A stretch of 64,000 nt of DNA, taken from the NCBI GenBank assembly GCA_027307235.1, contig DAHUXH010000007.1, positions 186,001-250,000 on the forward strand. Direction: 5' to 3'. How positions within the stretch are numbered: position 1 is the first letter of the stretch; every line of letters starts with the position of its first letter. The DNA comes from Vulcanimicrobiota bacterium (GTDB lineage Bacteria > Vulcanimicrobiota > Vulcanimicrobiia > Vulcanimicrobiales > Vulcanimicrobiaceae). Positions 29,839-32,932 of this stretch are shown here, in pieces. Both the position numbers and the translations under genes were made by a program. A model generated the notes under the pieces. It made no database searches. It was given only the letters and a program-made list of their open reading frames with translations, and was not told where the DNA came from.

Positions 29839-30200
29839 CCGTGCGCGGCATTCGCGCCTACGGTCACCACGGTGCCGATCCCGGCGAACGCGATCACGCG
29901 CAGCCGATCGACGTGTCGATCGAACTCGATCTCGATCTCTCGGCGGCGCAGCGCAGCGATCGACTTGAAGACACGCTGGATTACGCCGCGATGCACCGCC
30001 GCATCGTGGAGATCGTCACGGCGCAGTCGTTTGCACTGCTCGAAGCGTTGGGCGGCTGCATCGCCGACGCGCTCTGCGCGAATGCGCCGGTGGCTCGCGT
30101 CCGGGTATGCGTGTCGAAACCCGCGAAGCTCGATGGCGCGACGCCGGTCGTGTGCATCGAGCGTGTGAACGCCGCCTATCGAAACGAACCGGCGCGATGA
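29826..30200 (+). CDS. folB: dihydroneopterin aldolase FolB
   Basis: 124-residue aldolase cleaving dihydroneopterin to hydroxymethyl-dihydropterin and glycolaldehyde. Conserved features are the start DRITVRGIRAYGHHGADPGER, the LDYAAMHRRI segment, SFALLEALGGCIADAL with the substrate-binding Glu, and VSKPAK with the catalytic Lys. Its ATG overlaps the folP end by 13 bases, and folK follows with an ATGA overlap. Confidence 0.93.
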   Translation: MDRITVRGIRAYGHHGADPGERDHAQPIDVSIELDLDLSAAQRSDRLEDTLDYAAMHRRIVEIVTAQSFALLEALGGCIADALCANAPVARVRVCVSKPAKLDGATPVVCIERVNAAYRNEPAR

Positions 30201-30667
30201 CGCATTGCGCCTACGTCGGCGTCGGCGCGAACCTCGGTGATGCCGCCGCCGCCGTGCGCGCTGCCCTGCGCGCGCTCACCGAGATCGGCGTCGTGCGCGC
30301 GGCCTCGCACCTCTATCGCACCACGCCGTGGGGCGTGCGCGAGCAGCCCGACTTTATCAACGCCGTCGCGCTGCTCGAAACGACGCTCGAACCGCGTGAC
30401 CTGCTGGCGGCGCTCAAACGCATCGAAGTGCGCCTGGGCCGCAGCCCCGCACGGCGCTGGGGACCGCGCGCGATCGACCTGGATCTGCTGACGTACGATG
30501 CGCGGGAGATCGAGGAAGCCGATCTCGTCGTGCCGCACCCGCGCCTGCGCGAACGCGCCTTCGTCCTCATTCCGCTCGCGGAGATCGATGCGGCGTACGC
30601 GCCGCTCGCGGCCGCGCTGCCGCAAACCGAGGCGGCAGGCGTCGCGCGTATCGGCGACGCGTCCTGA
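30197..30667 (+). CDS. folK: 6-hydroxymethyl-7,8-dihydropterin pyrophosphokinase FolK
   Basis: Transfers pyrophosphate from ATP to hydroxymethyl-dihydropterin. 156 residues with YVGVGANLGDAAAAVRAAL, SHLYRTTPWGVREQPDFINAV, the signature GRSPARRWGPRAIDLDLLTYD (metal-binding Asp pair) and VPHPRLRERAFVLIPLAEI. ATG at 30197 overlaps folB. folC-folP-folB-folK thus form an almost complete folate operon behind moaC-mog. Confidence 0.95.
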   Translation: MTHCAYVGVGANLGDAAAAVRAALRALTEIGVVRAASHLYRTTPWGVREQPDFINAVALLETTLEPRDLLAALKRIEVRLGRSPARRWGPRAIDLDLLTYDAREIEEADLVVPHPRLRERAFVLIPLAEIDAAYAPLAAALPQTEAAGVARIGDAS

Positions 30668-30713: not shown

Positions 30714-31130
30714 ATGCCTGTGCATCTGATCGACGGCGAGCCCATCGCCGCTCGCGTTGGGCGTCTTGCCGACGCCTTCGACGATACCGACCTGATCCGG
30801 CTCTCCATCGAGCGTGACGGCGTCACGGTCGAGCTGCGCCGTCGCGGCGGTCAGCCGGCTCCCGTCGCCGAGGCGGCAGCCGCGCCCGCTCCGCAGCCGC
30901 GCCATGTGGACACGCTGCGCTCCGACGTCGTCGGCATCTTTCGCTTGGGGCGCCCGGCGCCGTCGCTCGGCGAAACGCTCGCGGGCGACCGGGAACTCGG
31001 GTTTGTGGAGGCTCTCGGCATTCGCAACCCGGTGCGCTCGCTCGGCGGCGGGTCCATCGTCGCCATCCTTGCGCAAGACGGAGCCGCCGTCGAATACGGC
31101 CAAGAACTTTTCGAAATCGACCGCGGATAA
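30714..31130 (+). CDS. BCCP-like protein lacking the biotinylation lysine
   Basis: 138 residues with the layout of acetyl-CoA carboxylase BCCP: an N-terminal segment, an Ala/Pro linker (46-62) and a C-terminal biotinyl-like domain (about 65-138) ending in AVEYGQELFEID, as in AccB. The biotin site EAMKM reads E-A-L-G-I (99-103), so the acceptor Lys is Gly102. I see no lysine anywhere in the protein, so it cannot be biotinylated on lysine. It sits 19 bases before accC. It may be a structural or regulatory subunit, with the true BCCP elsewhere. Confidence 0.78.
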   Translation: MPVHLIDGEPIAARVGRLADAFDDTDLIRLSIERDGVTVELRRRGGQPAPVAEAAAAPAPQPRHVDTLRSDVVGIFRLGRPAPSLGETLAGDRELGFVEALGIRNPVRSLGGGSIVAILAQDGAAVEYGQELFEIDRG

Positions 31131-31149
31131 GCGGAGAGGGACGCCCACC

Positions 31150-32502
31150 ATTTTTCGCAAGGTACTGATCGCCAATCGCGGCGAGATCGCGCTTCGCATC
31201 AACCGCGCCTGCCAGGAGCTGGGCGTGCTGACCGTCGCCATCTTTTCGGAGGCCGACCGCGACTCGCTGCACGTGCGCCAAGCCGACGAAGCGTTCTGCG
31301 TCGGTCCGGGCCCCGTGCCACGCTCGTATTTGAACATCCCGAACATCATCTCGACCGCGCTCGTCACCGGCTGCGACGCGGTGCATCCCGGTTACGGCTT
31401 TCTCGCCGAGAACGCGCGCTTCGCCGAGATCTGCGCCGACCACGGCCTTGCGTTCATCGGACCGACGCCGCGTGTGATCGCGGCCATGGGCGACAAAGCG
31501 ACCGCCAAGCGCGTGATGAAGGAAGCCGGGATCGCGACCACGCCCGGCAGCGACATCCTGCCGTCCGTCGAGGACGCTCGCCGCGCGGCCGAGCAGATCG
31601 GCTACCCGGTGCTGCTCAAGGCGACGGCCGGCGGCGGCGGCAAGGGCATGCGCACCGTCGAGTCGCCCGCCGAGATGGAACGCGCGTTCGCAAGCGCCAC
31701 GGCCGAGGCGGAAGCATCGTTCAAAGACGGGCGCGTCTATCTGGAAAAACTCATCGTGCGCCCGCGTCACATCGAAGTGCAAGTGCTCGGCGACACGCAC
31801 GGCAACGTGGTGCATTTGGGCGAGCGCGATTGCTCGGTGCAAAAACCGTCGCACCAGAAGTTGGTGGAAGAGGCGCTCGCGACCAACCTGTCGTCGAAGT
31901 CACGCGCCGCGCTGCACGAGATGGCCGTGCGCGCCTGCCAAGCCGTCAACTACACCAACGCCGGTACGCTCGAATTTCTCGTCAGCGGCGATCACGTCTA
32001 CTTCATGGAGATGAACACGCGCATCCAAGTCGAGCATCCGGTCACCGAGATGGTCTACAACATCGACTTGGTCAAGGAACAGATTCGCGTCGCCGCAGGG
32101 GAGGCGCTGGGCTATGCGCAGCGCGATCTCAAACCGAGCGGACATGCGATCGAGTGCCGCATCAACGCCGAGGATCCTCGCAACAACTTCTCGCCGCAAG
32201 CCGGCACGCTCTCGAAGGTCGTCTTCCCCGGAGGGCTCGGCATTCGCGTCGACACGCACGTGCATTCGGGGGCGATGGTGCCACCCTATTACGATTCCAT
32301 GCTCGCCAAGATCATCGCGTTCGGCGAGACGCGCGAAGCCGCGATCGCGCGCATGGAACGCGCACTGCGCGAAACGGTGATCGAGGGCGTGAACACGACC
32401 ATCGACATGTGTTTGGAGATCTTGGGGACGCGCGAATTTCGTGAAGGCCGCTACGCGATCGACTTCCTGCCGAACCTGCTGCGGCCCGCGACCGTCGCAT
32501 AA
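31150..32502 (+). CDS. accC: biotin carboxylase AccC, ATT start
   Basis: ATP-grasp subunit of acetyl-CoA carboxylase, carboxylating biotin on BCCP. 450 residues, normal length. FRKVLIANRGEIALRI at the start, GGGGKGMR (161-168), HIEVQVLGD, EMNTRIQVEHPVTEM and ECRINAEDP are all present. The canonical MF[KR]K start corresponds to ATT 31150, which has GGAGAGGG (31133-31140) nine bases upstream. Usual start codons in frame exist only far upstream inside the BCCP-like gene, in the wrong context. Confidence 0.95.
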   Translation: MFRKVLIANRGEIALRINRACQELGVLTVAIFSEADRDSLHVRQADEAFCVGPGPVPRSYLNIPNIISTALVTGCDAVHPGYGFLAENARFAEICADHGLAFIGPTPRVIAAMGDKATAKRVMKEAGIATTPGSDILPSVEDARRAAEQIGYPVLLKATAGGGGKGMRTVESPAEMERAFASATAEAEASFKDGRVYLEKLIVRPRHIEVQVLGDTHGNVVHLGERDCSVQKPSHQKLVEEALATNLSSKSRAALHEMAVRACQAVNYTNAGTLEFLVSGDHVYFMEMNTRIQVEHPVTEMVYNIDLVKEQIRVAAGEALGYAQRDLKPSGHAIECRINAEDPRNNFSPQAGTLSKVVFPGGLGIRVDTHVHSGAMVPPYYDSMLAKIIAFGETREAAIARMERALRETVIEGVNTTIDMCLEILGTREFREGRYAIDFLPNLLRPATVA

Positions 32503-32515
32503 GCGCGCAACGATC

Positions 32516-32932
32516 ATGCCCACACGACGAACCGGACGCGAACACGCGCTGCAAGCGCTCTACAGCATCGAGGTCGGACATCGCGAGCCCGCCGACGCGC
32601 TCGACGAGGTGACCGGCACCGACGCGGACTCACCGCATCGCGGGTTCGTGCGCGACCTCGTGCTCGGCACCCTCGAGCGGCGCGAGGAATGCGACGCGCA
32701 GATCGTGCCGCTGCTCGAAGGCTGGACGATCGAGCGTCTGCCGACCATCGACCGTCTCCTCTTGGAGATGGGTGCCTTCGAGTTGACGCATCTCTCGACA
32801 CCGGCGGCGGTCGTCATCAACGAAGCCGTGGAACTCGCGAAGAAATTCTCCACCGAAGACTCGGGGCGATTCGTGAACGGCGTCCTCGCGCGCCTGGGAC
32901 GAGCACATGGACGGGTATCGGAGAAGGCGTAA
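32516..32932 (+). CDS. nusB: transcription antitermination factor NusB
   Basis: 138-residue all-helical protein that with NusE/S10 binds boxA in rRNA leader transcripts. The N-terminal RRTGREHALQALYSIEVG, the central LLEGWTIERLPTIDRLLLEMGAFEL and VVINEAVELAKKFSTEDSGRFVNGVLARL are family hallmarks. ATG 32516 is 13 bases after accC, and the gene overlaps the following PBP gene by 26 bases. Other Nus factors (nusA, rho) are also in this window. Confidence 0.95.
   Translation: MPTRRTGREHALQALYSIEVGHREPADALDEVTGTDADSPHRGFVRDLVLGTLERREECDAQIVPLLEGWTIERLPTIDRLLLEMGAFELTHLSTPAAVVINEAVELAKKFSTEDSGRFVNGVLARLGRAHGRVSEKA

Follow-up and report, generated by a model that had tools for sequence, protein, structure and literature searches.

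A lysine-less BCCP-like protein encoded beside accC in Vulcanimicrobiota, a candidate non-catalytic partner of acetyl-CoA carboxylase

The window analysed here, a stretch of 64,000 nucleotides (C12:186001-250000) from a Vulcanimicrobiota assembly of 2.41 Mb that is 96.6% complete, contains on its forward strand an ORF (30714..31130) coding for a BCCP-like protein of 138 residues, and 20 nt separate its stop from accC (31150..32502, +), whose biotin carboxylase product scores 643 bits against TIGR00514, above the cut-off. A Shine-Dalgarno-like GGAGAGG (31133..31139, +) lies ahead of accC, which apparently starts at an ATT codon (31150-31152). The upstream neighbour folK (30107..30667, +) and the downstream neighbour nusB (32441..32932, +), both taken from the ORF list, are part of a conserved block, moaC-mog-folC-folP-folB-folK-[BCCP-like]-accC-nusB-pbp-xseA, in which the names were read from the translations and the order recurs in relatives.

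The protein is an AccB paralogue that has lost the biotin-acceptor site. In both profile and structure comparisons the EAMKM motif aligns to E99-A-L-G-I103, and the lysine expected in AccB/BCCP proteins (E-x-M-K-M) is replaced by Gly102 (codon GGC, 31017..31019, +), which bears out the original prediction on this point. The same prediction had stressed that there was no lysine at all, and in fact the translation contains none among its 138 residues; however, lysine makes up 2.5% of the proteins nearby, which gives a chance of P ~0.03 for zero lysines in 138 residues, and most members of the BCCP-like family have 1-3 lysines at other positions. Total absence is thus only mildly unusual, a quirk of the window's species, and a random shortage of lysine was dropped as the finding; the meaningful trait, conserved across the phylum, is the loss of the acceptor lysine together with that of the thumb. 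The place of the former biotin hairpin is occupied by the motif EALGIRNPVRS, which is fixed in the window's family. The C-terminal tail of the BCCP-like proteins of the class (L049-L070, family f3) mostly terminates in E-P-P-R-[ILM].

Scores against the established BCCP families are low, since TIGR00531 reaches 38.8 bits (E=1.3e-9; cut-off 115.2) and Pfam Biotin_lipoyl 17.6 bits (cut-off 22.1), both in the C-terminal half of the protein. The profile of the BCCP-like family itself matches E. coli BCCP (4hr7_B, residues 25-176) with E=4e-26 and aligns with classical BCCPs from end to end, the N-terminal region of BCCPs being thus retained. An AlphaFold model built with 43 sequences shows this N-terminal part (30744..30839, +) as a helix (residues 11-24) and a hairpin (residues 29-34 and 37-42) with pLDDT ~84-86, followed by a biotinyl-type barrel (residues 65-136; 30906..31121, +) with pLDDT 93-98. 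Foldseek matches the model to BCCP domains (among them 1bdo, 4hr7, 9a87 and Arabidopsis BCCP1), with a TM score against 1bdo of 0.79 when normalised by target length, so that the barrel expected of an AccB/BCCP is present and the biotinyl domain is retained as proposed, as is the neighbourhood of accC. The Tyr/Pro thumb, in contrast, is missing: the thumb Tyr is found in 0/57 accC-linked copies versus 56/56 classical ones, and the thumb loop is mostly of 11 residues versus 16 in classical BCCPs, although some deep members retain 16. In plants, the BCCP thumb contacts the BADC protein, and the BCCP-like protein would therefore make contacts of its own, unlike a BCCP's. In summary, the protein resembles bacterial AccB/BCCP (E. 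coli 4HR7, TIGR00531) in its barrel fold, its full-length profile match and its linkage to accC, but differs from it in lacking the acceptor lysine and the classical thumb and in scoring far under the family cut-off.

The remaining acetyl-CoA carboxylase genes are found elsewhere in the genome. The copy of accC in the window is the sole stand-alone one (no other match exceeds the TIGR00514 cut-off), and two further biotin carboxylases are each fused to their own BCCP. As had been anticipated, a functional BCCP is encoded at another place: an intact EAMKL-bearing copy lies on a different contig (C20:136019-136237), unlinked to accC and flanked by genes whose translations read as histidyl-tRNA-synthetase-like and phosphoheptose-isomerase-like, and accD and accA adjoin each other on C10. 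A complete acetyl-CoA carboxylase with an unlinked working carrier is therefore encoded, instead of the lack of any other BCCP or of fatty-acid synthesis that would have spoken against the idea.

The gene is conserved throughout the phylum Vulcanimicrobiota (Ca. Eremiobacterota). A protein search detected the family in 58/60 relatives, and its profile matches 146/149 genomes of the phylum (85/85 of the high-quality ones), a figure that is an upper bound for the paralogue because the profile also matches classical BCCPs, for which reason individual loci were read to confirm its identity. Scanning named genomes returned 57 loci; nearly all bear the label Ca. Eremiobacterota or Vulcanimicrobiota, with some named just "bacterium" and two Rhodospirillales. 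These two Rhodospirillales-labelled contigs, which carry the Eremiobacterota gene (L126, JANYGA010000175.1; L133, CAJCIN010000244.1), probably belong to mislabelled assemblies. At every locus read the BCCP-like gene directly precedes accC, at a start distance of about -7 to +31 nt, and even deep families retain the order [BCCP-like]-accC-nusB-pbp.

The acceptor position was inspected in 70 accC-linked copies, using the loci of the genome search because the peptide used to scan named genomes contained L-G and was unfit as evidence for glycine. It is G in 46, R in 8, N in 8, K in 6 and S in 2, that is, non-Lys in 64/70, while the lysine is present in 21/21 classical BCCPs of the phylum and in 56/56 classical copies of the tree set. 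One genus contains two species with K and another with R, a mixture that is expected if the residue is not used for biotin. The glycine variant is hence conserved among relatives, in which the acceptor lysine is lost phylum-wide, and not the recent mutation that lysine-bearing relatives would have indicated. Just as in the BADC-type arrangement, the motif-less paralogue exists alongside an intact BCCP, both in the window's genome and in the relatives read; four sampled genomes of the phylum without a stand-alone classical BCCP (G060, G062, G141 and G144) also lack the BCCP-like protein. Close pairs of the gene give dN/dS values of ~0.1-0.3 (pairs with dS < ~0.6, farther pairs being less reliable). 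The gene is under purifying selection and is neither recently mutated nor decaying. One relative (G005) has a second operon (L075, 4004-9286) in which accC is arranged in tandem with two BCCP-type genes, one product bearing K and the other being an additional K-less BCCP-like protein (EAPQKST); thiolase, ChsH2-like and PYC_OADA-domain genes come next.

Beyond the phylum, 60 of the top-ranking matches in other phyla were read, and 59 carry the acceptor lysine; the only K-less copy among them comes from G410, which probably belongs to the Armatimonadota. In this probable Armatimonadota group the accC-linked copy is K-less in 16/27 cases and K-bearing in 11/27, and a second, classical BCCP is also present with K in 12/12 read; given the eleven lysine-bearing copies, some members of the wider family may still function as carriers. 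In four loci from other phyla (L290, L301, L302 and L304) the paralogue profile outscores the classical one, yet the lysine is present; these accC-linked, paralogue-like copies possibly represent an ancestral, still working state. In a tree calculated after removal of the acceptor columns, by a quick search over few columns, a single branch with SH-aLRT 97 splits all 57 accC-linked copies (from two phyla) from all 56 classical BCCPs. The simplest reading of this tree would be one old duplication of accB, and horizontal transfer is a possible alternative.

The start codon of accC also appears unusual. Among 57 AccC loci including the window, the start is ATG in 17, GTG in 14, ATT in 14, ATC in 8 and another codon in four single cases. 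ATT and ATC starts are confined to one supported clade, in which 22/32 species including the window (21/31 relatives) have them, with 4 changes on the tree; a rare AUU/AUC start codon of accC thus appears in conserved use across L080-L136 and the window. In 16/23 non-canonical cases the frame is open upstream and has no ATG, GTG or TTG; in the window the nearest canonical start is 27 codons upstream. The Leu codon at AccC residue 6 is TTG in many species, and in principle usable as a start, but in the window and several further species no alternative exists ahead of residue 15. Non-canonical starts reduce protein yield in the cases studied (PMC13009471), and an AUU/AUC start would fit a throttled, coupled production of AccC. 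A programmed frameshift joining the BCCP-like frame to accC was ruled out, as the frame relation is 0, 1 or 2 depending on the species.

The closest likeness to these features is found in plants. BADC (biotin/lipoyl attachment domain-containing) proteins of the plastid heteromeric ACCase have 25-30% identity to BCCPs, lack AMKL, bind both BC and BCCP and aid assembly of the enzyme (PMC11926652); they were described as inhibitors first and as a "glue" for assembly later (PMC11926652, PMC12873504), and have been called unique to the plant enzyme (PMC11926652). The bacterial protein shares with them the combination of a BCCP paralogue devoid of the biotinylation motif, a functional BCCP and a multisubunit acetyl-CoA carboxylase, and the identity between the paralogue and classical profiles (~25%) is close to that between BADC and BCCP (25-30%; PMC11926652). 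It differs in being bacterial, in being encoded directly before accC and in its clade motif EALGIRNPVR. Binding to BC and BCCP is established for BADC and is proposed for the bacterial protein. In bacteria, a non-catalytic "glue" subunit of Thermobifida-type acyl-CoA carboxylase is described as helping the biotin carboxylase complex (PMC7835884, as cited in PMC11926652). Going by that description, the shared trait is that of a non-catalytic helper of a biotin carboxylase complex. To the best of our knowledge, the Thermobifida-type subunit is not a BCCP paralogue. Our literature search, which had incomplete coverage, turned up no publication that describes a BADC-like protein from bacteria.

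From the BCCP fold, the kept N-terminal region, the lost biotin site, the working BCCP elsewhere and the locus tied to accC we infer a non-catalytic partner of AccC/AccB that would influence the activity of the enzyme. We give a probability of roughly 0.6 to this being a non-catalytic BCCP paralogue that acts, like plant BADC, as an assembly "glue" and/or as a brake. According to this proposal, an old duplication of accB would have left one copy beside accC and the working, biotinylated accB elsewhere, and the product of the former, which probably retains the N-terminal part for binding AccC/BCCP in addition to the barrel, would join the AccC-AccB subcomplex without biotin. There it may serve as a subunit for assembly and stoichiometry and/or as a brake on acetyl-CoA carboxylase, and, being translated immediately upstream of accC, it could encounter AccC while the latter is still being made. 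The inhibitory or assembly function suggested in the original prediction agrees with this proposal. As a counterpoint, operon position by itself can preserve a gene.

Several other explanations should be considered. The protein could be an inhibitory decoy which, in excess, takes up the places of BCCP on AccC and makes acetyl-CoA carboxylase less active without helping assembly, a role recalling the initial description of plant BADCs as negative regulators (PMC12873504, PMC11926652) and one that a weak AUU/AUC start of the downstream accC would favour by leaving more BCCP-like protein than AccC; we regard it as unlikely, because the near-universal retention beside accC, as the sole AccB-type gene there, better suits a constitutive subunit. 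That the ORF is a translational leader, in which ribosome passage drives translation of accC and the protein is dispensable, appears improbable: the close spacing or overlap with accC agrees with it and the AUU/AUC starts of the window's clade would gain from coupling, but the dN/dS of 0.1-0.3 in close pairs and the conserved fold and motif reveal constraint on the protein, which furthermore persists in relatives outside that clade whose accC starts with ATG or GTG. We find it similarly hard to believe in a carrier whose cargo is not biotin, or in a ligand-sensing barrel with allosteric control of AccC, even if the barrel is conserved, the window's family has a fixed EALGIRNPVRS at the former biotin hairpin and lipoyl and biotinyl barrels have been reused in many proteins, because the variation of the acceptor position (G, N, R, S or K across the phylum) argues against a conserved attachment residue and there is no known ligand motif. 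Finally, a decaying accB pseudogene at a former accBC locus, which the loss of lysine and thumb and the scores under the BCCP cut-offs might suggest, can be dismissed with near certainty, as can a recent mutation, in view of the phylum-wide conservation of an intact frame, the purifying selection and the conserved clade-specific motif and gene order.

The preferred reading, that of a BADC-like subunit, can be extended to a wider scenario which we offer tentatively, as less than an even bet: a bacterial acetyl-CoA carboxylase with two BCCPs, in which accB was duplicated in the ancestor of Vulcanimicrobiota and (probably) Armatimonadota and the accC-linked copy became a dedicated non-biotinylated subunit of architectural or regulatory function. 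This change would have been separate from that in plants, or even older, and in one clade the AUU/AUC start would set the output of AccC. Non-catalytic BCCP paralogues have so far been described as exclusive to plants, and here one is found in nearly a whole bacterial phylum. A practical consequence for annotation is that an "accB" located next to accC in these genomes does not, in most cases, encode the biotin carrier. If the proposal is true, a phylum-wide bacterial counterpart located next to accC would offer a simple system for probing the role of such subunits, and would change ideas on the assembly and control of the committed step of fatty-acid synthesis.
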